35,334 nucleotides of DNA, taken from contig JAGQTV010000003.1 of the NCBI GenBank assembly GCA_020438845.1, forward strand, positions 1 to 35,334, read 5' to 3'. The notes under the pieces were generated by a model. That model did no database searches and was not told where the DNA came from. It worked only from the letters and a program-made list of their open reading frames with translations. This document shows, in pieces, positions 11,788 to 35,008 of this stretch (the first letter of the stretch is position 1; every line of letters starts with the position of its first letter). The position numbers and the translations under genes are program-made. The stretch is from Mycobacterium sp. (GTDB lineage: Bacteria > Actinomycetota > Actinomycetes > Mycobacteriales > Mycobacteriaceae).

Positions 11788-12951
11788 ATGAGTTCACCGA
11801 GAGTGGCCGTCGACGCAAAAGGGTATGAGGATGGTGGAATCGGTCACCTGCGTTCGGTAGGACGCGTTGGTGCTCTCGCCGTCGCGCTCGGTATTGGCGC
11901 CGCCGCGGTTTGGACCCCGGCGATAGCTGCAGCGGATAAAAACGGATCGTCCGGTTCAATCGCGTCGAATTCATCCTCCGGTGCGTCGAAGGCGACCAAG
12001 CATGCCGGGCCGCGCGTGAGCAACAGCAGCGCGACCCCGACCGCGAGGTCTTCGTCGGGACCGGTTGCCGGGGCCTCAAACGGCGTCGCGGCGCGTAGCG
12101 CACCATCCGGCATCTCCGCAGGCAATCAGTCAGGGTCGAGGCCCGCCAAAAAAGATGCGGAGATTCCCGCGCCTCCGGTCACCGGCAATGTGGTGCCGGC
12201 ACCTGCGGCGGTTGCGATTCAACCAGCGAGGGTGGCCGATTCGCCGTGGCCCGGTAGCCTGACGACACCAGCACCTGCGTCGGCTGTCTCTGCGATGGCG
12301 GCGGTAACCGCCAGCCGGTCGGGGGTACCCGTCGCAGCCGCCCGGGCGCGTCCGGTCTTGAATTTCATCCGGCTCTTCATCGGGAATGGCACGGCGGCCA
12401 ACCCGAATGCGGGTCTGTTGGTCGGTAACGGCTTCAGCTACGACGCGGGCACGTGTACGGGGACGGCGGCGTGTGCCGGTGGCCGGGGCGGGTTCCTCGT
12501 CGGCAATGGTGGCAACGGATGGAACGGCGGGTCCGGCGGATCAGCAGGGCTGTTCGGAAACGGCGGTGCCGGCGGAGCCGGGCTGTTATGGGGCGGTGAC
12601 GGTGGCCGGGGTGGGTTGATCTGGGGCAGACGCGGTCCCAGCGGGACGAGCGTGGCGTGGTCGTCGGTGTTCGAGTCTCAGCCCGACACAGTCGCCCCCG
12701 AAGACAGCGGGAGCTCAACCGACGCGGTTGCCCCCGGGGACGGCGCAAGCTCCACCGACACCCCGGCCGAGACGTCTTCAACGCCGCCCAGCTTCCCCGA
12801 CCCGTTCAAAGGATGGACCAAGCCCGGGTCCCTGGTAATCCCCGCGTCGGGGGGTCCGCCAGTGGTGTCTGCCGGTTTGTTCCCGCCCGGGGCGCCCGTC
12901 GTAACCGCCGGTGGAGGTTTGGTTATTCCTGCCGGGCCTGCGATTGGCTGA
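11788..12951 (+). CDS. Secreted glycine-rich PGRS-like protein without a PE domain
   Basis: A 387-residue exported protein of unknown function. Residues about 23-51 form a signal peptide (VGRVGALAVALGIGAAAVW, then an AIAAA cleavage region). A Ser/Ala/Pro-rich disordered linker runs to about 190. A PGRS-like block at about 192-290 carries 'GNGTAANPNAGLLVGNG', a Cys pair in CTGTAAC and repeated GGxGG/GNGG units. The tail is Pro/Ser/Thr-rich and ends in GGGLVIPAG repeats. The glycine block looks like PE_PGRS proteins, but no PE domain is present: a conventional signal replaces it. The same signal motif is found in the giant protein at 28646-34936. ATG 11788 has GAGGGG before it. The last 29 bases overlap the end of mmpL on the other strand. 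Confidence 0.8.
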   Translation: MSSPRVAVDAKGYEDGGIGHLRSVGRVGALAVALGIGAAAVWTPAIAAADKNGSSGSIASNSSSGASKATKHAGPRVSNSSATPTARSSSGPVAGASNGVAARSAPSGISAGNQSGSRPAKKDAEIPAPPVTGNVVPAPAAVAIQPARVADSPWPGSLTTPAPASAVSAMAAVTASRSGVPVAAARARPVLNFIRLFIGNGTAANPNAGLLVGNGFSYDAGTCTGTAACAGGRGGFLVGNGGNGWNGGSGGSAGLFGNGGAGGAGLLWGGDGGRGGLIWGRRGPSGTSVAWSSVFESQPDTVAPEDSGSSTDAVAPGDGASSTDTPAETSSTPPSFPDPFKGWTKPGSLVIPASGGPPVVSAGLFPPGAPVVTAGGGLVIPAGPAIG

Positions 12952-15865
12952 GCGAGGAATGTAGCGCGTCTGGCTGCTCTACTTCATTGTCGCGCAACAG
13001 CTCCCGCACGGAACGGCGCGTACCGTAGGGGCGCAGCATGCTGCTGGCCGGCCGCGGACGCACCTTCAGCGGCCACCAGAACCAGCGGCCGAGCAGGGCT
13101 GCGATCGACGGCGTCATGAACGACCGCACGACCAGGGTGTCGAAGATCAGTCCGACGCCGATCGTGGTGCCGATCTGGGCCAACACCATGAGGTCCCCGA
13201 ACGCGAAGCCGCACATGGTGAACGCGAACACCAGACCTGCGGCGGTGACCACCGAGCCGGTGCCCGCCATCGTCCGGATCAGCCCGGTGTTCAACCCCGC
13301 CCCGATCTCCTCCTTGAACCGGGAGATCACCAGAAGGTTGTAGTCCGAGCCCACCGCCAGCAGGATGATGACGGCCAGCGCCAGCACGATCCAGTAGAGC
13401 TGGATGCCGAGCAGGTGCTGCCAGATGAGCACTGACAGTCCGAACGAAGCGCCCAGGGACAACACGACCGTGCCGACGATCACCAGTGCGGCCACCACGC
13501 TGCGGGTCACGAAGATCATGATCAGCAGGATCAGGCTGATCGCCGCGATCGCCACCGTGATCAGGTCTACGTTCGCCATGTCGCGGGCGTCCTTGAAGGC
13601 GGACGCGGTACCGCCGATGTAGATGGCCGATCCGGCCAGCGGGGTCCCTTTGAGTGCTTCCTCTGCGGACTGGCGAATCGGGTCGATATGGGAAATGCCT
13701 CGTGGGGTGGCCGGATCGCCGTCGTGGGTGATGATCATCCGGGCGGCGTGGCCGTCCGGTGACAAGAACAGTTTCAGGCCGCGTTTGAACTCGCTGTTGT
13801 CGAACACCTCTGGGGGGAGGTAGAAGGTGCTGTCGTCCTTCGATTCGTCGAATGCCTTGCCCATCGCGTCGGAATTCTTCAGTGCCTCGGCCTGCTGGGC
13901 GAACAGCCCGGACTGGGTGGCGTAGTTCGATTTGGCAAGGTCCCTGTTGGCTTCCTGGGTGGCGATCTGCTCGGGGATCAGCGCCAGCAGTTGCGGCTGC
14001 AGCGCGTTGAGTTTGTCCAGGCTCGCCGTGACCTGACCGAACTGGTCTGTCAATTCGTCGACCTGGTCGAGGGCATCGAACAGCGACCGGAACGTCGCGC
14101 AGACCGGGATGTCGAAACAGTGCGGTTCCCAATAGAAGTAGTTCTTGATCGGCCGGAAGAAGTCGTCGACATTAGCCACCTTGTCGCGAAGTTCCTGGAC
14201 CGTGTCAACCGTCTTACGGAACGCGGCCGCCTGCTCGTCAGTGGCCGCCGCCGCCTGCTGCTGCAGTGTGTACTGCTGGCGCAGCACGTCGATCGAGGTG
14301 TTGATCTCCTGGATCTGCCGGGCCAGGTCGGCGGCGCGGGCCTGCTGGAACGGCAGATTCTGAATCTGCGCCGAACTCTGCGCGCTCATCGCGAAACCCA
14401 GTGAGGTGTGGTCCAGGGGGGTGCCCAGCGGCCGGGTGATGGACTGCACCATGGCCACGCCGCGGGTGCGGAACACCGCCTTGGCCACGCTTTCCAGCAC
14501 TTTCATGTTCGCCGGGGTGCGCAGATCCTTGTCGGATTCGATCATCAGCACTTCGGGGTTGAGCCGGGCCGTCGAGAAGTGCCGTTCGGCGGCGGTGTAT
14601 CCCACCTTGGCCGGGGCCCAGTCCGGCTGATACGGGCGGGCATCGTAGGAGGTTTTGTAGCCGGGAAGGGCGAGCAGTCCGATCAGCGCCACCGCGATCG
14701 AGGCCACCAGGATCGGTCCGGGCCAGCGGACGATCGCGGTGCCGATCCGGCGCCAGCCACGGGTCCGCATCGCACGTTTCGGGTCGAACAATCCAATCGT
14801 GCTGCCCATCGTGATGACCGCGGGCGTCAGGGTCAGCGAGGCCACCAGGGTGACCAGTACGCCGATGCCGGCCGGGATGCCCAGGCTCTGGAAGTACGGC
14901 GTCTTGGTGAACCGGAGGCAGAAGATCGCCGCGGCCACCGTCAGACCGGAGCCGATGATCACGTGTGCGGTGCTGCGATACATGGTGAAGTACGCCGCCA
15001 TCCGATCCTGCCCGGCCTGCCGGGCCTCCTGGTACCGGCCCAGCAGGAAGATCGCGTAGTCCGTTCCCGCAGCCACGGCGAGCAGGGTCAGCAGGTTGGT
15101 GGCGTACGTCGAGAGCGGAATGATGCCGATATGTCCCAAAAGGGCGACTACACCGCGCGCCGCGGCGACCTGGATGGCGACAGCCACCAGCGTGAGCAGC
15201 GAGGTGACGACCGAGCGGTAGACGATCAGCAGCATCACCGCGATCACCCCGAAAGTCAGCGCGGTGACCTTGATGTGGCTTTTCTCGCCGACTGCGAACT
15301 CGTCGGCGACCAGCGCTGCCGGACCGGACACGTAGGCCTTGACCCCGTCCGGTGGCGGGGTATCGGCGACGATCGCGCGAACCGCGGCGACGGACTCGTT
15401 GGCCTGGCTGCCACCGGCGTCGCCGTCCAGGTACACCTGGATCTGAGCGGCCTTGCCGTCATTGCTCTGGGCGCCGGCCGCCGTGAGCGGGTCACCCCAG
15501 AAGTACTGGACATGCTGAACGTTGGCGGTGTCGGCCCGCAGCCGCTCGACCAGTTCGTCGCCGAAGCGGTGTGCTTCGTCGCCAAGTGGCTGCGTGCCCT
15601 CGAGCACGATGGTGACCAGGCTGTCGGTGTCGTACTCGCCGAAGACCTGTCCCACCCGTTTGGCGGCGATGGTCGAGGGCGCATCCGGGGAGGCCTGCGC
15701 GACGTTGTGGATCCGGCCCACCTCCTCCAGCTGCGGCACCAGGGCGTTGGTGGAGGCGGCCAGCGCCAGCCAGAAGATCGCGATCGGAATGCACAGTTTG
15801 CGGATCAGATTCGGAATACGCGGCGTGCCCTCAGTGCGCGATGTGTCCACGGTGTCCCGGCTCAC
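12923..15865 (-). CDS. mmpL: MmpL family RND transporter
   Basis: A 980-residue inner-membrane exporter of the MmpL (RND) family, close in plan to MmpL4/MmpL5, which move lipids, siderophores or drugs out with the proton gradient. There are two halves of membrane helices, each with the proton-relay Asp-Tyr pair: GTDYAIFLLGRY (Asp269-Tyr270) and GSDYNLLVISRF (Asp841-Tyr842). Between them lies a long periplasmic region with a glutamine/alanine-rich coiled coil at about residues 490-680 and two cysteines in HCFDIPVC. The start is GTG 15865, with GAGGGGG overlapping the mmpS stop. The gap to mmpS is 10 bases, so the two are one operon. The C-terminus overlaps the convergent PGRS-like gene by 29 bases. 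The substrate is unknown; the adjacent polyketide cluster is one candidate source. Confidence 0.95.
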   Translation of the reverse strand: MSRDTVDTSRTEGTPRIPNLIRKLCIPIAIFWLALAASTNALVPQLEEVGRIHNVAQASPDAPSTIAAKRVGQVFGEYDTDSLVTIVLEGTQPLGDEAHRFGDELVERLRADTANVQHVQYFWGDPLTAAGAQSNDGKAAQIQVYLDGDAGGSQANESVAAVRAIVADTPPPDGVKAYVSGPAALVADEFAVGEKSHIKVTALTFGVIAVMLLIVYRSVVTSLLTLVAVAIQVAAARGVVALLGHIGIIPLSTYATNLLTLLAVAAGTDYAIFLLGRYQEARQAGQDRMAAYFTMYRSTAHVIIGSGLTVAAAIFCLRFTKTPYFQSLGIPAGIGVLVTLVASLTLTPAVITMGSTIGLFDPKRAMRTRGWRRIGTAIVRWPGPILVASIAVALIGLLALPGYKTSYDARPYQPDWAPAKVGYTAAERHFSTARLNPEVLMIESDKDLRTPANMKVLESVAKAVFRTRGVAMVQSITRPLGTPLDHTSLGFAMSAQSSAQIQNLPFQQARAADLARQIQEINTSIDVLRQQYTLQQQAAAATDEQAAAFRKTVDTVQELRDKVANVDDFFRPIKNYFYWEPHCFDIPVCATFRSLFDALDQVDELTDQFGQVTASLDKLNALQPQLLALIPEQIATQEANRDLAKSNYATQSGLFAQQAEALKNSDAMGKAFDESKDDSTFYLPPEVFDNSEFKRGLKLFLSPDGHAARMIITHDGDPATPRGISHIDPIRQSAEEALKGTPLAGSAIYIGGTASAFKDARDMANVDLITVAIAAISLILLIMIFVTRSVVAALVIVGTVVLSLGASFGLSVLIWQHLLGIQLYWIVLALAVIILLAVGSDYNLLVISRFKEEIGAGLNTGLIRTMAGTGSVVTAAGLVFAFTMCGFAFGDLMVLAQIGTTIGVGLIFDTLVVRSFMTPSIAALLGRWFWWPLKVRPRPASSMLRPYGTRRSVRELLRDNEVEQPDALHSSLSQSQARQE

Positions 15866-15875
15866 CCGATCCCCC

Positions 15876-16307
15876 TCATCCGGATTTGTCCAGACAGAAG
15901 ACGTAGGCGTCGTCGCCCTCGGAAGACTGCTCCACCTTGACCACGCCGTCGATGGTGATGCGGCAGCTCAGGTTGGACCCGTCGGTCTGGGCCTGGATGT
16001 TGGTGAGCACCGCCGGCACGGTGGTGGAGGCCTGGTAGGCCCACGGCAAAGTGGTGTCGACGCGCTGGGGCGTGGCGTTGACGTCGAGGTAGGTGATGGT
16101 CGCCGACGCTCCCGTGGAACCGAACACCTCCAGCAGTACCCGTTTGGGGTTGAACGGCACGATCTGGTCGGGCATCGCGCCGGGGGCGCCGGAGCCGGCA
16201 TGCGAGCCGAAACTGCTCTGCGTGCGGTAGACGGCGAACGCGGCCAGCGCGACGACTGCGATGGTGAGGAGCACGATCCAGTGTCGCCGTGCCAGCCTGC
16301 CGATCAC
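15876..16307 (-). CDS. mmpS: MmpS family membrane accessory protein
   Basis: A 143-residue partner of MmpL. It has one N-terminal membrane helix (about residues 8-26, HWIVLLTIAVVALAAFAVY) and a periplasmic beta-rich domain with LLEVFGSTGASATITYLDV and a C-terminal Cys pair (SCRITIDG and FCLDKSG), the usual MmpS layout and length. MmpS proteins support export by their MmpL partner. The start is GTG 16307. No good ribosome site is visible, but a TANNNT element ends 7 bases before it, so the message may be leaderless. It is first in the mmpS-mmpL operon and faces away from the MFS exporter gene. Confidence 0.93.
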   Translation of the reverse strand: MIGRLARRHWIVLLTIAVVALAAFAVYRTQSSFGSHAGSGAPGAMPDQIVPFNPKRVLLEVFGSTGASATITYLDVNATPQRVDTTLPWAYQASTTVPAVLTNIQAQTDGSNLSCRITIDGVVKVEQSSEGDDAYVFCLDKSG

Positions 16308-16314
16308 AGCCCGA

Positions 16315-16320
16315 ACAGTA
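16315..16320 (-). promoter_or_regulatory. Candidate leaderless -10 element of mmpS-mmpL (TACTGT)
   Basis: On the minus strand TACTGT (TANNNT) is followed by 7 bases and the GTG start of mmpS at 16307. There is no Shine-Dalgarno, which agrees with a leaderless or near-leaderless start. Confidence 0.45.
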
Positions 16321-16458
16321 CTAGCCGGTACTCCGCGGTGCCTGTTATGGGGGGTTTCGAGTCAGGCTGGCCAGGATGGCCAATCGACGAGGGCGGCGAC
16401 CGTGTGCGTGGCCTGACCGCAGTGCACAGGCAGGACATTTCCGGCCGAAAAGCCGCTA

Positions 16459-16516
16459 CATGTTGACGGCGCTAACTTGTGCTGTCATGCTTGGCGATGT
16501 TACTGCCGTCAACATG
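16459..16516. promoter_or_regulatory. 12-base inverted repeat bracketing the MFS promoter
   Basis: CATGTTGACGGC (16459-16470) recurs as its exact reverse complement GCCGTCAACATG at 16505-16516, with 34 bases between the arms. One arm contains the -35 hexamer, and the other lies just after the predicted transcription start and ends at the ribosome site. This fits two half-sites or two bound dimers of a repressor. No regulator gene is adjacent, so the binding protein is unknown. Confidence 0.5.
16463..16491 (+). promoter_or_regulatory. Candidate promoter of the MFS-SDR operon
   Basis: The -35 TTGACG (16463-16468) and -10 CATGCT (16486-16491) are 17 bases apart, with TGT before the -10 as an extended element. 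The predicted start is near 16498, leaving a leader of about 29 bases with GAGGA before ATG 16527. Confidence 0.45.
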
Positions 16517-16526
16517 AGGAACATCG

Positions 16527-18086
16527 ATGACCATCGCACCGCCAATACGGCCTCATCCCGACAAATCAGCACCCAGGCGGATACGGCCCGCAGCCGTGCT
16601 CGCCGTCGTTCTGGTCGCCTCGCTGGTGATCAATGTCGAGACGACCATCGTCAACGTCGGCCTCCCGACGCTGAACTCGGCGCTCGGAGCATCCACCCGC
16701 GGCCTGCAGTGGATCGTCGACGCCTACAACCTCGCCTTCGCCGCACTGGTCCTGGCCGGCGGAACGCTCGGCGACAAGTTTGGCCGCCGGGGAACGTTGA
16801 TCGCCGGCCTGATGCTCCTGGCGTTGAGCAGCGTCGCAGCGGCGCTGTGTACCACCACGGACTCGCTCATCATCGCGCGGCTGGTCATGGGAGTGGCTGC
16901 GGCGTTGATCTACCCGACCACCTTGGCGATCATCACCGATACCTTCCGCGACCCGAAGCAGCGCGCCGTCGCGATCGGGCTTTGGGGTGCGGTCACCGGC
17001 CTCGGCGTCGCGATCGGACCGATCCTCGGCGGTGCGTTGTTGGAGGTCTTCTGGTGGGGCAGCCTGTTTCTCGCGCTGGTGCCGATCGCCCTGGTCGCCG
17101 CCGTGGCGGCTCCGCTGGTCATTCCGCCCTCATCGGTTGACCGCGGTACGCGGCTGGACCGTGGCGGGCTGCTTCTCTCGGTGGTGATGCTCGGGTCGCT
17201 GGTCTACACGATCATCGAAGCGCCGGAACGCGGTTGGACCTCGCCGACAACCCTGGCCGGGTTCGGGTTGACGGTGGCCGCCGCGATTGGCTTCGCAGTG
17301 TGGGAACGTCGGCAGGCCGACCCGCTGATCGACGTCACGCTGTTCGCCAACCTGAGGTTCAGCGCGGCAAGCGGCGCAGTGACGGTGGCGTTCTTCGCCC
17401 TGTTCGGGTTCATCTTCCTGATCACTCAGTTCATGCAGCTTCTCCAAGGGTTCGGACCGCTGGGCACCGGGGTACGGATTCTGCCGGTGGCCCTGTCGAT
17501 CGCCGTCGGGTCGGTGCTGGGAACCCGGCTGGCGGTCAGCCGGGTCGGCACCAAGGTCGTGGTCTTCGTCGGCCTGGTGATGATGGCGGCCGCCTTCGCC
17601 TGGATCAACGTGATCGATCTGAGCGTCGGTTACCCGGAGATGGCTGCTCAGATGGTGCTGCTGGGCGCCGGCCTCGGGCTGACAACAGCACCCGCGACCG
17701 ACTCCATCATGGGGGTGGTGCGACCCGAGCAGGCCGGCGCCGGGTCGGCTGTCAACGACGCGACCCGTCAGGTGGGCGGAACTCTGGGGGTCGCAGTGAT
17801 CGGCAGCATCTTCTCGACCCTGTACATCCGTCAACTCACGGATAGTCCAGTGCTGCAGGCACTTCCGGCTCCGGTGCGATCGGTGGCCGAAGAAGGCCTG
17901 GCGCAGGGCCTGGCCGTCGCAGCGCAGTCACCGGGCCCGGCGTCTGTCGCCGTCCGAGACACTGTGACCGAGGCCTTCCTCTCCGGTATGGGCGCCGGTT
18001 GCCTGGCTGCGGCGGGGATCTGCCTGGCCGGAGCGGTGTTCGTGCTGGCGGCGCTGCCGGCACATCCGGTGAGGAGCCAGGCATGA
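16527..18086 (+). CDS. MFS exporter, DHA2 (14-helix) family
   Basis: A 519-residue membrane transporter of the EmrB/QacA (DHA2) group, a proton-driven exporter. Motif A reads GTLGDKFGRRGTLIAGL after helix 2 and DAYNLAFAALVLAGG in helix 2. The exporter motif C is GLGVAIGPILGG. The length and number of hydrophobic segments fit 14 helices. ATG 16527 has GAGGA 6 bases before it. Its TGA overlaps the next gene's ATG (ATGA), so translation is coupled to the SDR. Being first in the run that leads to the type III PKS, it is a candidate exporter of the polyketide product or a self-resistance pump. Confidence 0.92.
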   Translation: MTIAPPIRPHPDKSAPRRIRPAAVLAVVLVASLVINVETTIVNVGLPTLNSALGASTRGLQWIVDAYNLAFAALVLAGGTLGDKFGRRGTLIAGLMLLALSSVAAALCTTTDSLIIARLVMGVAAALIYPTTLAIITDTFRDPKQRAVAIGLWGAVTGLGVAIGPILGGALLEVFWWGSLFLALVPIALVAAVAAPLVIPPSSVDRGTRLDRGGLLLSVVMLGSLVYTIIEAPERGWTSPTTLAGFGLTVAAAIGFAVWERRQADPLIDVTLFANLRFSAASGAVTVAFFALFGFIFLITQFMQLLQGFGPLGTGVRILPVALSIAVGSVLGTRLAVSRVGTKVVVFVGLVMMAAAFAWINVIDLSVGYPEMAAQMVLLGAGLGLTTAPATDSIMGVVRPEQAGAGSAVNDATRQVGGTLGVAVIGSIFSTLYIRQLTDSPVLQALPAPVRSVAEEGLAQGLAVAAQSPGPASVAVRDTVTEAFLSGMGAGCLAAAGICLAGAVFVLAALPAHPVRSQA

Positions 18087-18871
18087 ACCGAACCGAAAAA
18101 TACGGTCCGTGGGCGTTGATCACCGGTGCGAGCGATGGGATCGGCCGGGCGATAGCGGCCCGGGTAGCGGCCGAAGGACTCAACGTGGTGCTGGCCGCCC
18201 GAAACGAGGCGGCGCTGCATCAGCTCGCCGCGGAACTGGCCCGCACTTCGAACATCGAGACCCGCGTCGTCCCTGTCGATCTCAGCGCGGTCGACGGACC
18301 GATGAGGCTCATCGCCGCAGTGGACGACCTACCCGTCGGGTTGGCTGTCCTGGCAGCAGGCTTCGGCGGCGTGCGGTCATTTGCCGACTCCTCGCCTGCC
18401 GCTGAGGCCGAGATGATCGCGGTCAACGTGAGTGCGGTCGCGCAGTTGGCCCAGTACTTCGCCCACCGGATGGCCAGGCGCGCGCGCGGGGGCATCGTCC
18501 TGTTCGGATCCCTCCTGGGTTGGCAGGGTGTCCCCGGGCAGGCCAACTATGCCGCGACCAAGGGCTACGTGCAGGCCTTGGGCGAGGGCCTGCACGCCGA
18601 ACTCAAGCCGCACGGAGTCGATGTGCTCTGCGTCGCGCCGGGGCCGGTGCATTCCGGCTTCGCCAATCGCGCCGGTATGACGATGCCGTCTGCCACCACA
18701 CCCGATGTGGTGGCTTCCAGCGTCTGGACCACACTGGGCCGACGGACCACCGTCGTGCCCGGCGCGCAGGGCAAACTGCTCACGGCAAGCTTGAAGACGC
18801 TTCCCAGACCGGTGCGCAGCGCGATTCTTGCGCGCGTCATGGAATCCATGCGGAACGCCGATGGACCTTAG
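18083..18871 (+). CDS. Short-chain dehydrogenase/reductase (classical SDR)
   Basis: A 262-residue NAD(P)-dependent oxidoreductase. The cofactor motif TGASDGIG is at residues about 14-21; AARNE after the second strand, with its Arg, suggests NADPH. NVSAV is the structural Asn region, and the catalytic pair is Tyr156/Lys160 (NYAATKGY) with Ser in LFGSLLGW. The C-terminal 40 residues (after VVPGAQGKLLTA) resemble the lipid-linked SDRs common in mycobacteria. Its start overlaps the MFS stop by ATGA, with GAGGAG upstream. The gap of 188 bases to the PKS gene could hold a second promoter. The substrate is unknown, perhaps a keto group on the polyketide or a fatty precursor. Confidence 0.9.
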   Translation: MNRTEKYGPWALITGASDGIGRAIAARVAAEGLNVVLAARNEAALHQLAAELARTSNIETRVVPVDLSAVDGPMRLIAAVDDLPVGLAVLAAGFGGVRSFADSSPAAEAEMIAVNVSAVAQLAQYFAHRMARRARGGIVLFGSLLGWQGVPGQANYAATKGYVQALGEGLHAELKPHGVDVLCVAPGPVHSGFANRAGMTMPSATTPDVVASSVWTTLGRRTTVVPGAQGKLLTASLKTLPRPVRSAILARVMESMRNADGP

Positions 18872-19059
18872 CCGCCGAATCGCAACATGCGTGGGGATGC
18901 TGGGCGTCGCCGATCACGGGGTCGGAAGACCGGTTGTGCTCTGACCCTCGCTGTTCAGCGGTGTCGTGTTGTCAGACACGTCACACCGGGCCATCCGCCG
19001 GGCCGGTGGCTCCGAATGCACGCCATAACACAGCGAAATGGATCGGAAGGAGAACAACG

Positions 19060-20160
19060 GTGAAGTCCACCAGTTTCGGGCGGAGTTCCCAGGGGCCTGC
19101 CAGCATTGTCGCGGCGGTGCAGGGGGCGCTTCCCGCCAACCGTTACAGCCAGGCCGAGATCACCGAGGCGCTGACCCGCTTGCCTCAATTCGTCCCGCAC
19201 GCGGATCTGCTGCGGCGTTTTCATCAGACCGCGAAAGTTGAGCATCGGCACCTCGCGCTGCGGCTCGAGGAATACCCCCAGCTGCAGGACTTCGGCCAGA
19301 CCAACACGCTGTTCCTCGAGCACGCGGTGAACTTATGCAGCGACGCGGTCTCGGCAGCTCTCGAGGACGCCGGTCTGCGGCCCGAGGATGTTGATCTGAT
19401 CGTCTCCACGACGGTCACCGGTGTCGCGGTGCCGTCTCTTGAGGCCCGGATCGCCGGTCGGTTGGGTATGCGCCCGGACGTGCGGCGGGTTCCGCTGTTC
19501 GGTCTTGGCTGCGTAGCCGGCGCGGCCGGATTGGCCCGAGTTCACGACTACCTCCGCGGCAACCCCGATGGGGTGGCGGTGTTGGTGTCGGCGGAGTTGT
19601 GTTCGTTGACCTTCCCGGCGTTGGGTGCCGACGTGGCAGGACTGGTGGGGACGGCGCTGTTCGGCGACGGAGCTGCCGCCGTGGTTGCGGTCGGTGAGCG
19701 CCGGGCGGAGAAGCTTGGTCTCAGCGGGCCGCGGGTGATCGACACCGCGAGCCGGCTGTATCCCGACTCGCTGCGCACCATGGGCTGGGATGTCGACTCA
19801 TCCGGATTCCGGCTTGTGCTCTCACCAGATGTTCCCGACATGATCAACCGCTACCTGAGGGCGGACCTCGACGGATTCCTCGGGGCTCACGGCCTCGATG
19901 TCGCCGATATCGGGGTGTGGGTCAGTCACCCCGGTGGCCCGAAGATCATCGAGGCGATCACCGACAGCCTCGATCTGCCGCCGGACGCTCTCGAGCTCAC
20001 CTGGCGCTCGCTGGCTGATATAGGCAACATCTCCTCTTCGTCAGTCCTGCACATTCTGCGTGACACCATGACAAAACGGCCCGCCGACGGATCCCCGGCC
20101 GTGATGATGGCGATGGGCCCCGGATTCTGCTCGGAGCTGCTGCTCCTGCAATGGCAGTAA
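19060..20160 (+). CDS. Type III polyketide synthase (chalcone synthase-like)
   Basis: A 366-residue homodimeric enzyme that extends an acyl-CoA starter with malonyl-CoA units and cyclises the chain to an alkylpyrone, alkylresorcinol or related ring. The complete catalytic triad is visible: Cys151 (FGLGCVAGAAGL), His290 (VSHPGGPKI) and Asn323 (GNISSSSV). The end motif 'MAMGPGFCSELLLLQW' is the family's GFGPG-type loop. The sequence is of the mycobacterial Pks10/Pks11/Pks18 group, which favour long fatty acyl starters. GTG 19060 is preceded by AAGGAG at 7 bases; I see no better start upstream. It lies 10 bases before the ICMT methyltransferase gene, and the order PKS, methyltransferase, flavoprotein matches srsABC-type phenolic-lipid operons. 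Confidence 0.93.
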   Translation: MKSTSFGRSSQGPASIVAAVQGALPANRYSQAEITEALTRLPQFVPHADLLRRFHQTAKVEHRHLALRLEEYPQLQDFGQTNTLFLEHAVNLCSDAVSAALEDAGLRPEDVDLIVSTTVTGVAVPSLEARIAGRLGMRPDVRRVPLFGLGCVAGAAGLARVHDYLRGNPDGVAVLVSAELCSLTFPALGADVAGLVGTALFGDGAAAVVAVGERRAEKLGLSGPRVIDTASRLYPDSLRTMGWDVDSSGFRLVLSPDVPDMINRYLRADLDGFLGAHGLDVADIGVWVSHPGGPKIIEAITDSLDLPPDALELTWRSLADIGNISSSSVLHILRDTMTKRPADGSPAVMMAMGPGFCSELLLLQWQ

Positions 20161-20170
20161 GGGGGATCAG

Positions 20171-20680
20171 ATGATGTGGTATCCAGTTCTTCTACTCGCA
20201 GTCGGCCTCGAGCGAATCGCCGAAATGGTTCTGGCGCAACGAAATCTGTCCTGGAGCCGGGCGCGCGGCGGAATCGAGTTGGGTGCAGGTCACTACCCGG
20301 TCATGGTCGTCTTACATCTGGCGCTGCTAGTGGGCTGTGCGCTTGAGGTCCTCGTGCTGCACCGCCCGTTCATTCCGGCGCTGGGGTGGTCGATGTTGGC
20401 CCTCGTCGCCGCCGCCCAGGGTCTGCGCTGGTGGTGCATCGCCACACTGGGACGACAGTGGAACACCCGCGTCGTGGTGATACCCGGTGCAGCGCGGATC
20501 ACCGGAGGTCCCTATCGCTGGCTGTCACACCCCAACTACGTCGCGGTGATCCTGGAGGGGCTGGCCCTTCCGCTCGTCCACACCGCGTGGCTGACGGCGT
20601 TGGCGTTCACCACGCTCAACGCTGTTCTGTTGAGCACCCGTGTCGCCGTGGAGAATTCAGCATTGGAGAGGCTGGCATGA
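20171..20680 (+). CDS. Isoprenylcysteine carboxyl methyltransferase (ICMT)-family membrane methyltransferase
   Basis: A 169-residue membrane protein with about four or five hydrophobic helices and the ICMT-family signature RITGGPYRWLSHPNY followed by VAVILEG, at about residues 108-129. The family uses S-adenosylmethionine. Bacterial members beside type III PKS genes methylate alkylresorcinol or alkylpyrone hydroxyls rather than proteins. Two ATGs (20171 and 20174) follow a GGGGGA ribosome site; the first is used here. Its stop overlaps the next gene's ATG (ATGA), so it is tightly coupled to the flavoprotein gene. Confidence 0.9.
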   Translation: MMWYPVLLLAVGLERIAEMVLAQRNLSWSRARGGIELGAGHYPVMVVLHLALLVGCALEVLVLHRPFIPALGWSMLALVAAAQGLRWWCIATLGRQWNTRVVVIPGAARITGGPYRWLSHPNYVAVILEGLALPLVHTAWLTALAFTTLNAVLLSTRVAVENSALERLA

Positions 20681-21690
20681 ACGACCTCATCGTCGCCGGA
20701 GGCGGACCTGCGGGGCTGGCCACGGCGATTCACGCGGCCCGCGCCGGCCTCGAGGTAACGGTGGTCGAGCGGCGCCCGGGCCCGGTCGACAAGGCCTGCG
20801 GGGAGGGGTTGATGCCGCACACCTTGCGCCACCTCGACTCCCTCGGCATTACCCCGTACGGCAAACCTTTTCGCGGCATCACCTATCTCGACCGGACTCG
20901 ACGTGTCGAGGCGCGCTTTCCCGACGGAGCCGGTCGAGGGGTTCGGCGCACAGTGCTGTCCGAGGCCCTTCACGACACCGCAGCAAGCTCAGGGGTCCGA
21001 ATCGTCCGGGGTGATATCCGAGATGTCGACCAGGACGAATACTCGGTTCGGTGCGGCGGTCTGCAGGCCCGCTATCTGGCAGCGGCAGACGGCTTGCACT
21101 CGCCCATCCGTCGTCAACTCGGGCTGGACCGGCCCAGCGGTCGCGGGCGCCGGTGGGGCATCCGCCGACACTTTCACATCGCTCCGTGGAGCGATACCGT
21201 CGAGGTTTACTGGGCCGCGCACACCGAGGCCTATGTGACTCCGGTGTCTGACGATTGCGTCGGGGTGGCCGTCCTCACCTCCCGGCAGGGCAAGTTTGAG
21301 GATCATTTGCGGGAATTCCCCGCTCTCGCAAGCCGACTCGCAGGCGCCAACCACGGACCCACCCGCGCGGCCGGGCCGCTGCGCCAGCGTGCCCATCGCC
21401 AACATCACGGCAGGGTCATGCTGGTCGGAGACGCCGCCGGATACGTGGATGCACTCACTGGTGAGGGGCTCGGAATCGCCTTCGGCGGTGCCGAAATCCT
21501 GGCCGGATGCGTGGTGGCGGACGACCCGGCTCACTACTCCCGGCAATGGCGCCGCATGTCCCGGCGATATCGGCTGATGACCGCCGCCCTCCTGACGGCG
21601 AGCAACTCGCCGGCTCGGACCATGATCGTACCGGCCGCCGCCACTCTGCCGAAGGTCTTCAACCAGGCGGTGAGACTGCTGGCGCAGTAA
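20677..21690 (+). CDS. FAD-dependent oxidoreductase (geranylgeranyl reductase / hydroxylase-like)
   Basis: A 337-residue flavoprotein. The Rossmann motif GGGPAGLATAIHAARAGL lies near the N-terminus, with Glu in VVERRPG binding the ribose. CGEGLMP follows, and the second FAD motif is MLVGDAAGYVDALTGEGLG at about 248-266. This pattern is that of the geranylgeranyl reductase, PHBH and halogenase superfamily. In type III PKS operons such a protein oxidises the methylated ring, for example hydroxylation toward a quinone (SrsC role). That role is inferred from position. It overlaps the ICMT stop by ATGA and is the last gene of the run. Confidence 0.9.
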   Translation: MNDLIVAGGGPAGLATAIHAARAGLEVTVVERRPGPVDKACGEGLMPHTLRHLDSLGITPYGKPFRGITYLDRTRRVEARFPDGAGRGVRRTVLSEALHDTAASSGVRIVRGDIRDVDQDEYSVRCGGLQARYLAAADGLHSPIRRQLGLDRPSGRGRRWGIRRHFHIAPWSDTVEVYWAAHTEAYVTPVSDDCVGVAVLTSRQGKFEDHLREFPALASRLAGANHGPTRAAGPLRQRAHRQHHGRVMLVGDAAGYVDALTGEGLGIAFGGAEILAGCVVADDPAHYSRQWRRMSRRYRLMTAALLTASNSPARTMIVPAAATLPKVFNQAVRLLAQ

Positions 21691-21760
21691 GTGGGCTGGG
21701 CCTGTTCCAACAAGCGCGAGGCAACGCCTCACGGGCTGGTGATCGCCGGTGGGCCTGCGA

Positions 21761-21778
21761 TCGGCTGACAACAGCCGG
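21761..21778 (+). terminator. Small hairpin after the PKS operon
   Basis: TCGGCTG and CAGCCGG (six Watson-Crick pairs plus one G-U) enclose a 4-base loop, about 70 bases after the flavoprotein stop. There is no T-tract. A weak candidate for the operon end; nothing else stands out in 21691-21891. Confidence 0.25.
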
Positions 21779-21891
21779 GGCTCGGGATGGACATAGGGCT
21801 ACTGCCACAAACCTGGTTGTGTTGTCTTCGCGGGCAGGAGAGTTCGTTCTTCGAATTGAATGAATCAAAAGCTGTGAGCTCAGGACGAACG

Positions 21892-21897
21892 TAGGCT
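21892..21897 (+). promoter_or_regulatory. Candidate leaderless -10 element of fadD (TAGGCT)
   Basis: TAGGCT (TANNNT) lies 6 bases before GTG 21904, the same geometry as at 1231-1243; the two sites share TAGG-base-TACCGCC before the start codon. No ribosome site is present. This suggests fadD has its own leaderless promoter rather than depending on the PKS operon. Confidence 0.6.
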
Positions 21898-21903
21898 ACC
21901 GCC

Positions 21904-23745
21904 GTGACAACACCACAGCCTGCCGGTGACAACCTCCGGATCGCGCGAGTCGAGAAGCGACTGCCAACGGTCGCAAAAATGCTCGTCGCGAGGGTCGCCG
22001 CGACTCCCGGGCGGGAGGCGTTTCGCTATCCCCGTGGTGATCGATGGGAGAGCGTCACCTGGCAGCAGGTCGACGACCGCGTCCGGACCATCGCCGCCGG
22101 CCTGATCTCGCTCGGCGTCGCCCCGGGCGAACGCGTCGCTCTTATTTCGTCGACGCGTTATGAGTGGGTGATCGTCGATTACGGCGTGCTGTGCGCGCGT
22201 GCGGCGACTACGACGGTGTATCCGACCACCATCGCCGCCGACGTCGCCTTCATTGTCGGCAATTCCGGGAGCCGGGTGGTGGTGGCGGAGGATCAGAGTC
22301 AGGTCGACAAACTGGTCGAGCGTCGTGCGGACATTCCCGATGTGATCAACGTCGTGGTCATCGACGGCGAAGGTGACGGGGACTGGGTGATCACGCTCGA
22401 GGAACTCGAGCGACGCGGTAAAGAGCTGCTGGACAAGTCCCCCGGCGCTGTCGACGAGCGGATCGAGGCCGGCCGGGCCGACGACCTCGCCGCCATCATC
22501 TACACCTCCGGTACCACGGGCAACCCCAAGGGGGTCCAGCTCACCAACGTGGCGGGAACCTACATCCCGTCGGCCGTCGATACGCTGGACAGCGTCTACC
22601 CCGACGACCTGAACTACGTGTGGTTGCCACTGTCGCACTCGTTCGGCAAGGTCATGACGTCTATGCCGCTGGTGGTCGGGTTCCCCAGCGTGATCGACGG
22701 CCGCGTGCCCAAGCTGGCCGAAAACCTCGGCATCCTGCGTCCCACCTTCCTCTGCGCGGTGCCCCGTGTCCTGGAGAAGGTCAAGGCCGGCGTGCAGGGC
22801 GCGATCGCAGAGATGACCGGCGTGAAAAAGGTGATGGCCGACTGGGCCATCGGGGTCGGCCTCCAGGTAGCCCGGGCGCGGCAGGCCGGCAAGCGGCCAT
22901 CGCCGGTGTTACAGGTCCAGCACCAACTGGCCGACAGGCTGGTGCTGTTCGGAATTCGGGAGAAGCTGGGCGGCCGGCTGCGCTTCGTCATGACCGCCTC
23001 GGCGCCATTGGACCGCGACGTCGCATTGTGGTTCGACGCCATCGGCATCCCCGTAGTCGAGGGTTACGGACTGACTGAGACATCCGCTGCGTCGTTACTG
23101 AATCGCCTCGACGCGTACCGCTTCGGGACCGTGGGTGTGCCACTGCCCGGCACGGAGGTGCGGATCGCCGAGGATGGAGAGGTTCTCCTGCGTGGGCCGG
23201 GAGTGATGATCGGCTACCACGAAATGCCGGAGGCCACTGCCGAGGTGCTGGAGCCGGACGGCTGGTTCCACACCGGCGACATCGGCGAGCTCGACCCAGA
23301 CGGGTACCTGCGGATCACCGACCGCAAGAAAGATCTGTTCAAGACTTCGCAGGGCAAGTACGTGGCGCCATCGGCGATCGCCGCGGCCTTCGGCGGCATC
23401 TGCCCGTACGTCGCCGAGTTCGTGGTGTACGGCGAAGCCCGTCCGTACGCTGTCGCGTTGGTCGCGCTGGACCCGGACGCGATCAAAGCGTGGGCAGCCA
23501 AACAGGGCCTTGGCGACAAATCCTTCGCCGAGATCGCGCGCGATCCGCAGACCCGCGAGCTCGTCGGTGGGTACATTGACCAGCTCAACGCACAGCTCAA
23601 TCGCTGGGAGCAGATCAAGAAGTTCACGATCATCGATCGGGAGCTATCGATAGCGGCCGGTGACCTGACACCGAGCATGAAGCTGCGCCGCAAGGCCGTG
23701 GTCACCAACTTCGCGGAACAGTTGGAGGATCTGTACGACAAGTGA
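21904..23745 (+). CDS. fadD: Long-chain fatty acyl-CoA synthetase, FadD15-like
   Basis: A 613-residue adenylate-forming enzyme that activates long-chain fatty acids to acyl-CoA in two steps through an acyl-AMP. The P-loop motif YTSGTTGNPKGV is at 200-211, the A5-type motif is VEGYGLTETSA, the TGDIGELDPDGYLRITDRKKD block precedes the hinge, and the C-terminal TPSMKLRRK (Lys593) is the form seen in eukaryotic-like and FadD15 enzymes. The length and these motifs match FadD15 rather than the shorter fatty acyl-AMP ligases, which carry an insertion. It could supply acyl-CoA starters to the type III PKS just upstream, or serve general lipid metabolism. It starts at GTG 21904. Confidence 0.92.
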   Translation: MTTPQPAGDNLRIARVEKRLPTVAKMLVARVAATPGREAFRYPRGDRWESVTWQQVDDRVRTIAAGLISLGVAPGERVALISSTRYEWVIVDYGVLCARAATTTVYPTTIAADVAFIVGNSGSRVVVAEDQSQVDKLVERRADIPDVINVVVIDGEGDGDWVITLEELERRGKELLDKSPGAVDERIEAGRADDLAAIIYTSGTTGNPKGVQLTNVAGTYIPSAVDTLDSVYPDDLNYVWLPLSHSFGKVMTSMPLVVGFPSVIDGRVPKLAENLGILRPTFLCAVPRVLEKVKAGVQGAIAEMTGVKKVMADWAIGVGLQVARARQAGKRPSPVLQVQHQLADRLVLFGIREKLGGRLRFVMTASAPLDRDVALWFDAIGIPVVEGYGLTETSAASLLNRLDAYRFGTVGVPLPGTEVRIAEDGEVLLRGPGVMIGYHEMPEATAEVLEPDGWFHTGDIGELDPDGYLRITDRKKDLFKTSQGKYVAPSAIAAAFGGICPYVAEFVVYGEARPYAVALVALDPDAIKAWAAKQGLGDKSFAEIARDPQTRELVGGYIDQLNAQLNRWEQIKKFTIIDRELSIAAGDLTPSMKLRRKAVVTNFAEQLEDLYDK

Positions 23746-25798: not shown

Positions 25799-27160
25799 GT
25801 GCAGGGGCCGCGAACGCAGTTCGCCAGCTGCGGCGAAACCGATATCGCCTACCAGGTCATGGGCACTGGCCCGGTAGACCTGTTGGTGTTTCCGGGTCCA
25901 CCCATTCCCGTCGACTCCATCGACGACGAGCCCTCGATGTTCCGCTTCCACCGGCGCCTTGCCTCGTTCAGCCGTCTGATCAGGTTCGATCAGCGTGGCC
26001 AAGGTTCTTCGTCGCGTGCCCCGCTAGACGCAGTTGGACCCGACTACTGGGCAGAGGACGCACTATCCATCCTCGACGCCGTAGGTTCCGAGCAGGCGAC
26101 GATATTTGCTTCGACGTACTTCTCCGCCAGCGCCCTTGTTCTGGCAGCCGAGCACCCCGAGCGGGTGCGCAGCCTGGTGATCGTCAACGGTGCGGCGCGT
26201 ACGTTGTGGGCACCCGATTACCCTTTAGGAGCGAAAACAAGTCTCGCGAACCGTTTCTCGACGGTTGGGCTGGAACCGGACGCGGTCCAGAAGGGCTTCG
26301 ATGGCCTCAAAGCGATAGCACCGTCCGTGGCCGGCGACAACGGTTTTCGTGCATGGTGGGACCTTGCCGGCAACCGTGCGGCATCACCGAGCATGGCGCG
26401 GGTCATGCACAGAGCGCTGGCAGAAAGCGACGTGCGTGACGCACTCGAGCGGATCACGGCCCCAACTCTGATCATCAGCCGCGACAGCTCAGAATTCGTA
26501 CCGGTTGGGCACGGCCGTTATCTGGCTGAGCACATCGTCGGTGCGCGTTATGTGGAGTTGCCCGGCGTTGACGCGTTGTACTGGGTCGGGGACACCGCCG
26601 CGATGCTGGATGAGATCGAAGAGTTCGTCACCGGTGTGCGCCGCGGGCTCGAAACCGAGCGTGTTCTGACAACCATCGTGTTCACTGACATCGTCGGCTC
26701 GACCGAGCGTGCGGCCGCACTGGGCGACGAGCATTGGCGAGATCTGCTCGACCTCCACGACAAGGTGGTTCGACGGGAGCTTGCGCGATTCCGGGGCCGA
26801 GAAGTGAACACCGCCGGTGACGGCTTCGTCGCGACGTTCACCAGTCCGAGTGTCGCCATCGACTGTGCCCAGGCAATAGTGGATTCGGTTGACGAGATCG
26901 GCCTCGCGGTGCGCGTGGGGATCCACGCAGGTGAAGTCGAGGTACGCGGAAACGACATCGCCGGACTCGCCGTGCATATCGGCGCACGGGTGGCGGCCCA
27001 CGCCGGGTCGGGGGAAGTGCTGGTCTCATCCACGGTGCGTGAGATCGTCACCGGATCGCGTCGCACATTCACCGACCGCGGCGAGTACCAACTCAAAGGC
27101 GTTCCGGGCCGTTGGCGGCTTTACGCGCCGGTTCGGGATACTGCTGCTGTCAGTCAGTGA
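25799..27160 (+). CDS. Alpha/beta-hydrolase-like domain fused to a class III adenylate cyclase (Rv1900c/LipJ-like)
   Basis: A 453-residue fusion with the plan and length of M. tuberculosis Rv1900c: hydrolase fold (about 1-280), then a class III nucleotide cyclase (about 285-450) making cAMP. In the cyclase the two metal aspartates are present (Asp297 in [10 protein letters not shown], Asp341 in NTAGDGF) and Arg397 (GARV) is at the transition-state arginine position. Asn338 stands where the substrate-choosing Lys usually is, and His393 where the transition-state Asn usually is. In the hydrolase part the normal GxSxG elbow is replaced by FASTYFSA (103-110), so esterase activity is doubtful and it may act as a sensor. 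It starts at GTG 25799. Confidence 0.88.
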
Positions 27161-28645: not shown

Positions 28646-31600
28646 TCAGAGGAAGTTCGCCGGCTGGATCTGGTCCTTGACGCTGTAGACCTGATACTTG
28701 CCCTTCCAACTCAAATCTGAGGTGATCTGCGGGATGAATGCTGCGCTGGCGGTCAGGAACCCCTGAGAGGTGAGCGATAACTTCGTCTTGTCGGGATCGG
28801 CCAATGGAATCGTGAGGTCCGCGGTTATCGGATTCTGGAATCCCACCGACAGTTTGAAGACGTCCAAACTGATCGGGAAACTCGGCGGCGTGTAAAGGCC
28901 GTAGGACACCGATGCGTACGGTGTCACCGTGGCACTCAGGCTCGCGGAACCGGTCACGTCGAAGTAGTTTTCGATGTCTTTTGTCGACACGTATCCCGTC
29001 GTGGAGAAGGCGCTGGCCGACATGCCCAGCGAATCCGGGTTTCCGGCGCTATTCCAGGTGAACAGCAGGCCGGGCGTGTAGAGAGCCTGAGCCAGTGTGA
29101 GCGGGTTCTCGGGTTTCGATTGGATCCCGATGGACCCTGTCAGCGAGGCGTCAAGGCCGATGGTCTCTCCGAATACGCCGAACTCGGTTTCCTGAGTATC
29201 GGTGTAGCTGTAGCTGGCCTTGACCGTGTCGGTCACCGGCCCGGACTGCCAGTCGGGGATATTGAGAAGCAGCGACGGACCGCCCTGCACGCCCAGCACC
29301 AGACCGGCTGCGTAGTCATCCGGGACGAACTTGTCCCAGATACCCGCGGGAACGAAGACGTAGCCGTAGCCCGCCGCCGACAGATTCACGTCGGCCTGAA
29401 TGGTGTCTCCGTACGTGTAGATCACCCCCTTATCGCCGAAGGGGTAGTTGAAGACGAATGTTTGGAAGTCGCCGTCGCAACTGGAACCGCAATAGGGCTG
29501 GTTGAACGATTGGCCGAATACGGGGTCAGTTGAGCCGCCCACCGCGCCTGTGGTGCCGAACGCTCCGGAAGGTGCGTTAGCGCCCGTTGCGAACGTCCAT
29601 GCCGATTGCAATGTTTCGGGATCGAGCTGACCGGGCAGCGGCGCCGGGGCCTGCTGTTCTTTCCACGTCGTGGCTGGACTCCAGGTGGTTTTCGGGGGAT
29701 AAGCCGCCGGCGGGAGATTCGAGCCGTCCCAGGAATAGATTCCGTTGTCGGTCAGGCCCACCGCCAGCGACGACGCGTACCACCGATTCCCCGCGGAATC
29801 TGTGACGACCTGACTGATCGGGACCATCTGCTGTACCGATCCGACTGTTCCGGGCGGCCCCGGAAGCGCACTGCTATTGGCGATTTGGGTGACCGCGTTC
29901 ACGGGATTCTGTGCAGTCACCGTCGTGGTGGTCGTCGTGGACCCTGACGTGGTCGTCGATGTGGTCGTCGTCTGCAAAAAGCCGAAAGCAGAGCTAGTCG
30001 AAGGTGCGCCGAAGGCGGTAAAGATCTGAACCGTTCCATTGGACGGGTCATCCGGCGCGGTGAGGCCGTACGCGAAGCCGTCGCCCATCGGCACCATCGA
30101 CGTCACCGCCTGATTCCCGGCAGGGAAGCAGCCGCAGCCTGGGTCATAACCCACTAGTTGTGACCATCCGGCCGGCTGGCTGAGCATGGAGGGAATGGTG
30201 GCCCCAGGGTAGGTGAGCGACATCGTGGTCTGGTTGTCCGGAACGAACGGACCCGAGCCGACGGTGGGATTGTTGGAGGGGCTCCAATACATGATCGAGC
30301 CGTTGTCCAAGCCGACGACAAACCCGTCGCGCCACGGAATCATGGTCGTCTCAGCCGAATACCACGTCTGGCCCGGGACCAACTCACCTAGGCCGTTGTT
30401 CCAGCCCGCAACGCTGCCGTCGCTGAAGCCCACCACCCAGCCGGTTCCATCCGACGCACTCATCGGGGTGCCCGGTGCCACTACCTGCGACGTGTCGACA
30501 AGGTAGACACCCGTGCTCCCGCCATTACACCCGAAACCGCTTGCGTCGCACAGATTCCCCGCGCCGTCGCTGATCTGCCGGACGATCGTGGTTTCCGACG
30601 CGAGGCCGGCCCCGCCGTACAGCTGTTGGCCGACCCTGATCGGGTTGCCGCCGGCTTCCTGGACGGTCAGCACATAGCCGCCGCAGCCACCCCCATTCCC
30701 GCTGTTGTAGGACCAGTTGCAGCCTGCGGCGAACGCCGACAAGTCGGGGAACGTTGACTCCAACGCGTAGGCCGGGGTGGAGATCACCCCGGTCGTTTCG
30801 TCGGCGATGACCGGTGCACCGCTGATAGACCCGACCAAGGTGGTGCCGTCGTAGGGAATCAAGGTGGTGGGTAGCGAGTTGGTGAATGGCGCGCCCTCGG
30901 CGAACGGGGCGCCATCGAATCCCTGCATCCAGCCGATGGTCTGGCCCGGGCTGTAGTTGTCATCCCAGCCGATGGCGACGAAGCCACCGTTCTGTCCGCT
31001 GGCTACGACCGCCTTGACCGAGGTTAATCCGTTGTCCGGCCCGGTGGGGGTGACAGTCCAGCAGTCACCCGGCGAACCGTTGGAACACCCGCTGTTCCCA
31101 CCGGAGGCCGGCGGCACGATTGATCCGTCCGCCAGAATGTAGTTGTTCCAGGTCGCCACCGTGCCGTTGCTGGTGCCGACGACAAAACCGAGATTGTTCG
31201 GCAATGCTGTGATGGTGTTGACGGCCACGTCGTCGCCCCAACCGTTGGGGGCTTGCAGTTCAGCCCACCCTTGAGCGACCGGAGTGGCGACCTGGAAGAC
31301 CGGGACGGTCCCGTAATCATCGCTTCCGCCGTCGTAGTTAGCCAGGTAGACGTTGATGCCGTCGGCTGTCACGGCAATGCCCAAGGTGTCGTCGCCACCG
31401 GCGCCGGTGGCGAAAGTTGAGATCACGCTCATGAGCCCTGTGTCGATGACCGAGACCGTGCTGTCATTCGAGTTGGTGACGTAGGCGTACTGCAGGCCGG
31501 GATTCGGATTGAACGCGACTCCGCTGGGACCGTTACCCACAGCGATGTAGGACACGTCGTACGTCGAGGTGTCGATAACGGAGACAAAGTTGGTGTCAAG

Positions 31601-34936: not shown

Positions 34937-35008
34937 GCCAATTCCCCATCCGACGAAAAGGGGGCAACGCGAGTGCCGCCCCGACCCAACGGGGAACGTT
35001 AGCATTGG

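Follow-up and report, generated by a model that had tools for sequence, protein, structure and literature searches.

Only recently have polyketide quinones become part of the picture of respiratory chemistry. Here, we analysed a 35,334-nucleotide stretch of DNA from a Mycobacterium sp. (hereafter the window; contig C5 of a 4.53 Mb source genome in 118 contigs), which carries a gene for a type III polyketide synthase (PKS). The PKS gene is followed by genes for a small membrane methyltransferase of the ICMT family (MT) and a flavin adenine dinucleotide (FAD)-dependent oxidoreductase. Around these three lie genes for a major facilitator superfamily (MFS) transporter, a short-chain dehydrogenase/reductase (SDR) and a long-chain acyl-CoA synthetase (FadD), and an earlier sequence-only reading had combined all six into one cluster that makes and exports a lipid. 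Open reading frames (ORFs) and the agreeing Pfam and NCBIfam matches confirmed the six genes, their families and their common direction on the + strand. The ATGA couplings at MFS/SDR (18083-18086) and MT/FAD (20677-20680) were also found in the sequence, and the PKS triad of Cys151, His290 and Asn323 is in place when numbered from the GTG codon at 19060, a start that the sequence-only reading had not named. However, the tempting make-and-export scheme had to be corrected, as the presumed cluster falls apart into distinct units, between which a junction can be recognised. We consider it likely that 18980-21690 is a self-contained three-gene polyketide-quinone operon, the second copy in this genome, and that its neighbours adjoin it by rearrangement.

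The PKS-MT-FAD core operon

The MT and FAD genes lie directly 3' of the PKS gene and are coupled, by a 10-bp gap and then by the ATGA overlap, and the GTG start of the PKS is preceded by GGAAGGAG. Gene families and gene order are those of the srsABC/polyketide-quinone type, as the sequence-only reading had stated, and the operon is an additional member of an already known operon kind. We compared it with nine window-type relatives (77-84% PKS identity) and with 72 canonical loci (71 distinct; L033 and L187 are identical in the tree). The canonical set was drawn from 80 named-record loci, of which six were removed as Pks10/11-type, and from some loci of other genomes found by tblastn; gene orders came from a simple in-house gene caller, and L025 and L005 are truncated at contig ends. 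The MT gene follows the PKS gene in all ten window-type loci and in 70 of the 72 canonical ones. The FAD gene is present at threshold in nine of the ten window-type loci, the tenth (L005) being cut by its contig end, and in 71 of the 72 canonical loci. Nine positions are fixed in the window-type PKS and rare in the canonical one (e.g. R232 and M261), none of which is readable as an active-site change from the sequence.

Table 1. Features in the central part of the window, with strand and basis of assignment
Feature	Position	Strand	Basis and remarks
Type III PKS, 366 aa, GTG start	19060-20160	+	PF00195, PF02797; triad C151/H290/N323; W243
ICMT-family small membrane methyltransferase (MT), 169 aa	20171-20680	+	PF04140, 89.9 bits; SrsB/PkqB-like by position and type
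FAD-dependent oxidoreductase, 337 aa	20677-21690	+	PF01494; TIGR02032 below cut-off; SrsC/PkqC-like by position and type
Conserved island upstream of PKS	18980-19017	+	Alignment with relatives; possible promoter/regulatory site
Alpha/beta hydrolase remnant	18861-18977	+	39 of 266 aa matched, internal stop; marks left junction
SDR	18083-18871	+	PF00106; ATGA-coupled to MFS
MFS transporter, DHA2-type (EmrB/SmvA/LfrA-like)	16527-18086	+	Pfam/NCBIfam; opens separate MFS-SDR unit
Long-chain acyl-CoA synthetase, FadD11-like (below model cut-off)	21904-23745	+	NCBIfam
MmpS-family membrane protein	15876-16307	-	PF05423; divergent from MFS
MmpL-family RND transporter	12923-15865	-	Pfam/NCBIfam; divergent from MFS

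Several further features were noticed in the compared loci. A 238-aa membrane-like protein without a Pfam match is encoded in 35 of the 72 canonical loci (e.g. L154:11664-12380) and resembles, by eye, a second ICMT-type methyltransferase; a different SDR gene directly follows the FAD gene in 17 of the 72, and L154 also carries a divergent O-methyltransferase gene (PF01596). Tandem type III PKS genes occur in L071 and L076 in the order PKS (53-54%)-MT-MMPL-PKS (63-65%)-MT-FAD. Another clade of mycobacterial type III PKSs, at 51-53% to that of the window, comprises L148-L153 and L161; these loci have an MT but no FAD match, and several lie in another conserved neighbourhood. Two records titled as metagenome-assembled genomes (MAGs) of Bifidobacterium breve (L017 and L018) bear a clearly mycobacterial operon, and these bins look mislabelled or contaminated.

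Neighbouring genes and junctions

The sequence-only reading had proposed a search for co-occurrence of the SDR and MFS genes with this PKS clade, and had named a regular lack of SDR, MFS and FadD genes at homologous loci as counting against it. We ran the comparison with thresholds of 300 bits for MFS, 150 for SDR, 500 for FadD, 60 for mmpS and 500 for mmpL. The neighbours were consistently absent: no match above threshold to any of the five was found in the available flanks of the nine window-type relatives or the 72 canonical loci. The upstream flanks of the nine relatives measured 0.4, 0.7, 1.8, 3.1, 4.6, 6.8 and, in three cases, 10 kb, with 0.7-10 kb downstream of the PKS gene; the SDR was detectable in eight of them (more than 0.6 kb), the MFS in seven (at least 1.8 kb) and most of FadD in five (at least 3.2 kb downstream). 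Below threshold, there were distant SDR matches (30-33%) in L009, L034, L053 and L198, and L053 also had an MFS match (43%) at a distance of about 9.5 kb from its PKS gene. In L028, one of the 72 canonical loci, mmpL was matched in part (66-74%), more than 8 kb away from the PKS gene. Hence, the comparison lends no support to the SDR as a pathway enzyme, to starter supply by FadD, or to export by either the MFS or mmpS-mmpL. The adjacency of mmpS-mmpL that had been pointed out stands, but the pair is on the opposite strand and diverges from the MFS gene. In many canonical loci, an MMPL gene precedes the PKS operon, but the window MmpL is a different protein from its product (24-32% across the region matched).

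The MFS and SDR genes turned out to form their own unit. Close SDR relatives (at least 57% identity) occur in 13 of 238 genus genomes, including the source genome, and our follow-up covered 11 of the 12 others, leaving out G054. An MFS gene stands directly beside the SDR gene in eight loci (L141, L173, L174, L175, L178, L180, L181 and L182; SDR 57-68% identical), and no PKS, MT or FAD match was found near any of these pairs within the 10-18 kb available at each. Since the pair occurs without the PKS in all eight other loci, it can be regarded as independent. The SDR gene is found without the MFS gene in L177 and L179, L176 is a short contig, and L142-L145 have the MFS gene without the SDR gene. 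On the strength of neighbour conservation, these independent pairs and the junction described below, we rejected the MFS, SDR and mmpS-mmpL genes as pathway members.

The 188 bp between the SDR and PKS genes contain the hydrolase remnant and the conserved island. Nucleotide homology to the MFS-SDR units in L141 and L173-L175 runs from about 16460 to 18805-18880, and in G417 and G418, which carry the same operon type, homology on the MFS side reaches 18958. In these two genomes, a 266-aa alpha/beta hydrolase gene follows the MFS gene, and the window keeps its first 39 residues (74% identical, with an internal stop). From the other side, homology to the L003 PKS operon extends from 18970 to 21688, ending at the FAD stop codon, and that to L008 and L198 from 19109 to 21688. 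The MFS-side homology ends at 18958 and the PKS-side homology starts at 18970, so the two units meet between these positions. G417 has its PKS operon on contig C29 and an MFS gene with 94% identity on another contig, C31. The arrangement may reflect a gain in the window or a loss elsewhere; the truncated hydrolase gene speaks rather for a rearrangement in the lineage of the window. The SDR body is missing between the MFS and hydrolase genes in G417 (L194:9809-9814) and G418 (L197), and only a short SDR match lies beside the MFS gene in G414 (L195:5162-5317); these losses and shortenings indicate that the MFS unit itself is eroding in the lineage.

On the right-hand side, the FadD gene has a paralogue on contig C62 of the source genome (62% identical), its best relative in 236 genus genomes is 68% identical, and FadD matches in seven of the nine window-type genomes are on contigs other than those of their PKS genes. 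FadD is probably a neighbour by rearrangement without a supported tie to the PKS operon. In G417, a gene for a thiamine pyrophosphate (TPP) enzyme (89%) is located some 6.5 kb away from the MFS gene; it is also found behind FadD in the window, where it is inverted relative to the MFS gene. Because of this inversion, the right-hand sides of the window and G417 are not colinear, and we rejected a junction behind FadD deduced from the TPP match. Farther along, 25799-27160 (+) encodes an alpha/beta hydrolase fused to an adenylate/guanylate cyclase domain, a 45% relative of which adjoins the PKS gene in L074 (8583-9905), upstream and on the opposite strand. A 2119-aa ORF at 28646-35005 (-) gave weak beta-propeller matches only.

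The island before the PKS gene ends 42 bp ahead of the GTG codon and reads TCACA-N24-CTCCGAAT in the window, according to an alignment with eight relatives from which the ninth, L011, was left out. Across the relatives, the pattern is TCACA-N20..26-CTCCGAAT; it is present in L003-L010, L011 carries a form with changed letters, and none of the canonical loci examined has it. The source genome has the pattern twice (here and on C16), and the reversed control gave no occurrence. Since the alignment itself supplied the pattern, finding it again in the loci aligned is no independent evidence, and the island is better supported by comparing identities, although its limits were also set after looking. 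The mean identity of the window to the eight relatives is 0.75 in the island and 0.32 in each of 18872-18930 and 18931-18979 (the 108 bp upstream), compared with 0.39 from the island to the ribosome site; the 4-fold degenerate positions of the PKS gene give 0.46-0.59. The island may serve as a promoter or operator of the three-gene operon. A scan of 16200-22000 for sigma-70-type promoters found none, with 0.7 expected, and the best matches to a DosR box consensus had 14 of 20 letters at 5033 and 11196 in the window and 1078 in L137, none of them at either of the two operons of this genome.

A second operon copy in the same genome

The source genome bears its other type III PKS gene on contig C21 (L137), as part of another PKS-MT-FAD operon in the same order, with identities of 71% for PKS, 71% for MT and 73% for FAD. 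The start of the C21 operon is overlapped by an MMPL-family gene (L137, 7352-9601, by in-house gene calls). An MMPL gene within 2.5 kb before the PKS gene is found in 55 of the 72 canonical loci versus none of the ten window-type loci, seven of which have 2.3 kb or more of sequence upstream. All nine window-type genomes show another type III PKS match (58-71%), which in G419 is only a 31-residue fragment at a contig edge and in G420 comprises two full copies plus one fragment. A PKS more than 75% identical to that of the window is present in just three of 118 genus genomes, including the source. In literature searches, titles and the openings of abstracts yielded no report of a mycobacterial genome with two operons of this kind.

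The window type forms one clade with a value of 100 in the Shimodaira-Hasegawa-like approximate likelihood-ratio test (SH-aLRT), both in the PKS tree (111 rows) and in the tree of PKS, MT and FAD together (61 rows, without L025). The PKS tree omitted rows that had stops, were shorter than 300 aa or were repeated; Pks11 is among the rows kept, and L162 forms a very long branch. Together with 20 canonical operons, mostly from MAGs and some from lakes according to record titles, the window type makes up a set of 30 rows in the three-protein tree (98) and of 31 rows in the PKS tree (92), with the order inside left unresolved by the trees. In the gene trees, the two copies mismatch pairwise, as the window copy pairs with L003 and the C21 copy with L013/L016. 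The second copies and the trees as a whole suggest that the operon was duplicated or transferred within one lineage and then relocated; given the pairwise mismatch, it may also have passed between relatives. The dN/dS ratios (nonsynonymous to synonymous substitutions) are 0.08-0.14 against L003, indicating purifying selection, and 0.02-0.18 in five within-clade pairs.

Proposed product, alternatives and known systems

Most likely, the product of the operon would be a methoxy-alkylbenzoquinone, by a mechanism that we propose from the homologous operons srsABC of S. griseus and pkqABC of M. smegmatis. The type III PKS would load a long-chain acyl-CoA, extend it with malonyl- or methylmalonyl-CoA and cyclise the chain to a (methyl-)alkylresorcinol. 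The flavoprotein would hydroxylate or oxidise the ring towards the benzoquinone, the ICMT-type membrane enzyme would O-methylate it, and the resulting methoxy-alkylbenzoquinone would reside in the membrane, where it could be a phenolic lipid or carry electrons as an alternative to other carriers. A PKS, a methyltransferase and an oxidoreductase in this order are reported to make alkylbenzoquinones in M. smegmatis and a Streptomyces (PMC9927152), and alkylbenzoquinones have been proposed as electron carriers at low oxygen (PMC9927152, PMC8730385). W243 of the window PKS, when aligned with Pks11, occupies the position of ArsB W281, a Trp linked to resorcinol formation (PMC9927152, PMC5916927).

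This Trp bears on an alternative product. The enzyme could make Pks11-like alkylpyrones that are methylated by the MT, with the flavoprotein acting on something else and no quinone being formed. M. tuberculosis Pks11 is indeed the closest solved protein to the window PKS (4JAO, 502 bits), and MMAR_2470 and MMAR_2474 yield methylated triketide pyrones (PMC5916927). In addition, Leu65 of the window PKS, located by the offset from the Trp, takes the place of Phe52 of MMAR_2474, which supports tetraketides, and Leu is called conserved in related enzymes there (PMC5916927). However, W243 is present where the pyrone-only MMAR_2470 has Tyr, Tyr72 of the window stands at the place of Tyr59, and both MT and FAD genes are kept beside the window-type PKS, whereas the Pks10/11-type loci examined have neither. 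We therefore regard alkylpyrones as an unlikely product.

A single cluster of six genes, with FadD supplying the acyl-CoA starter, the PKS, MT and FAD proteins building the lipid, the SDR as tailoring enzyme and the MFS, together with mmpS-mmpL, as exporter, could account for the co-direction of all genes within 7.2 kb and the two ATGA-coupled junctions. The FadD gap is also just 213 bp, and an earlier state there was seen in no relative. These points are outweighed by the absence of the added genes from the compared loci, the MFS-SDR pairs without a PKS, the gene remnant and conserved pre-PKS island that split the SDR from the PKS, and the separate contigs of operon and MFS gene in G417, which make such a cluster very improbable. 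The operon might instead be a dying duplicate without a present function, in keeping with the rarity of its PKS in the genus and its somewhat faster evolution after the split. However, the three frames are intact, the within-clade dN/dS ratios are low, and the catalytic residues as well as the upstream island have been retained, so that we give this idea the least credence of all.

Several observations weigh against our preferred explanation of a self-contained quinone operon. The quinone product is deduced from homologous operons. Pks11, the closest protein with a solved structure, carries an annotation as alpha-pyrone synthase and shares the Trp, which is therefore compatible with pyrones as well. 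No genome in the sequence sets that we searched was identified as M. smegmatis itself. The nine relatives are all MAG records, several of them with short flanks, and the trees are of the 'quick' type without bootstrap. Owing to the pairwise mismatch of the two copies in the gene trees, duplication and transfer are indistinguishable, and an arrival of FadD together with the operon is neither shown nor excluded. The stem of the window type is long (0.32 changes per column in the three-protein tree), and change was greater in the window copy than in that on C21, with Tajima counts of 95:68, 91:57 and 87:64 for three outgroups (chi2 of 4.5, 7.8 and 3.5, the last falling short of the 5% level). The long stem and the faster change imply that the activity of the window type may have shifted.

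A mostly uncultured mycobacterial lineage might keep two separately controlled polyketide-quinone operons, one coupled to an MMPL gene and the other self-contained, changing its place and equipped with an upstream element of its own. The second could serve to make a different quinone, with another chain length or methylation, or to work under other conditions, giving the cell two pools of polyketide quinones beside menaquinone; we put this forward tentatively, as a possibility that we would not yet favour. A genome with two diverged polyketide-quinone operons is a natural test of what sets the quinone structure and when it is used.

Among known systems, DpgA (3,5-dihydroxyphenylacetyl-CoA synthase) was the best NCBIfam match of the window PKS, and we rejected it (NF042429, 180 bits versus a curated cut-off of 425). 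The Pks10/Pks11 (MMAR_2470/2474) double type III cluster has PKSs about 64-66% identical to the window PKS, of the same family and with the same triad. It lies with type I PKS, P450 and ABC genes (PMC5916927), and its examined loci are without adjacent MT-FAD genes. The window contig has a single type III PKS gene, and no type I PKS was found among the 20 window ORFs scanned. Orthology to Pks10/11 was rejected, as their rows form their own branch (SH-aLRT 94) and the window type another (100) in the PKS tree. The S. griseus srsABC operon unites the same three enzyme types (PMC9927152); the likeness is one of gene types, with distant sequences, and a Streptomyces record (L190) has PKS, MT and FAD at 57, 62 and 52% to the window. 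The C21 copy has the gene order of the window operon and differs by its overlapping upstream MMPL gene. A further parallel is M. smegmatis pkqABC (MSMEG_0808, MSMEG_0809 and, presumably as the third gene, MSMEG_0810), which like the window encodes a type III PKS with the intact triad and the Trp, a methyltransferase and an oxidoreductase in this order. In the three-protein tree, the window operon groups in one large mycobacterial clade with PKS-MT-FAD operons that include those of two near-M. smegmatis genomes (G361 and G077, best MspA matches of 99% and 98%). Unlike pkqABC, it forms a separate diverged clade, the genomes that harbour it carry another type III PKS, and it is preceded by a conserved island of its own.

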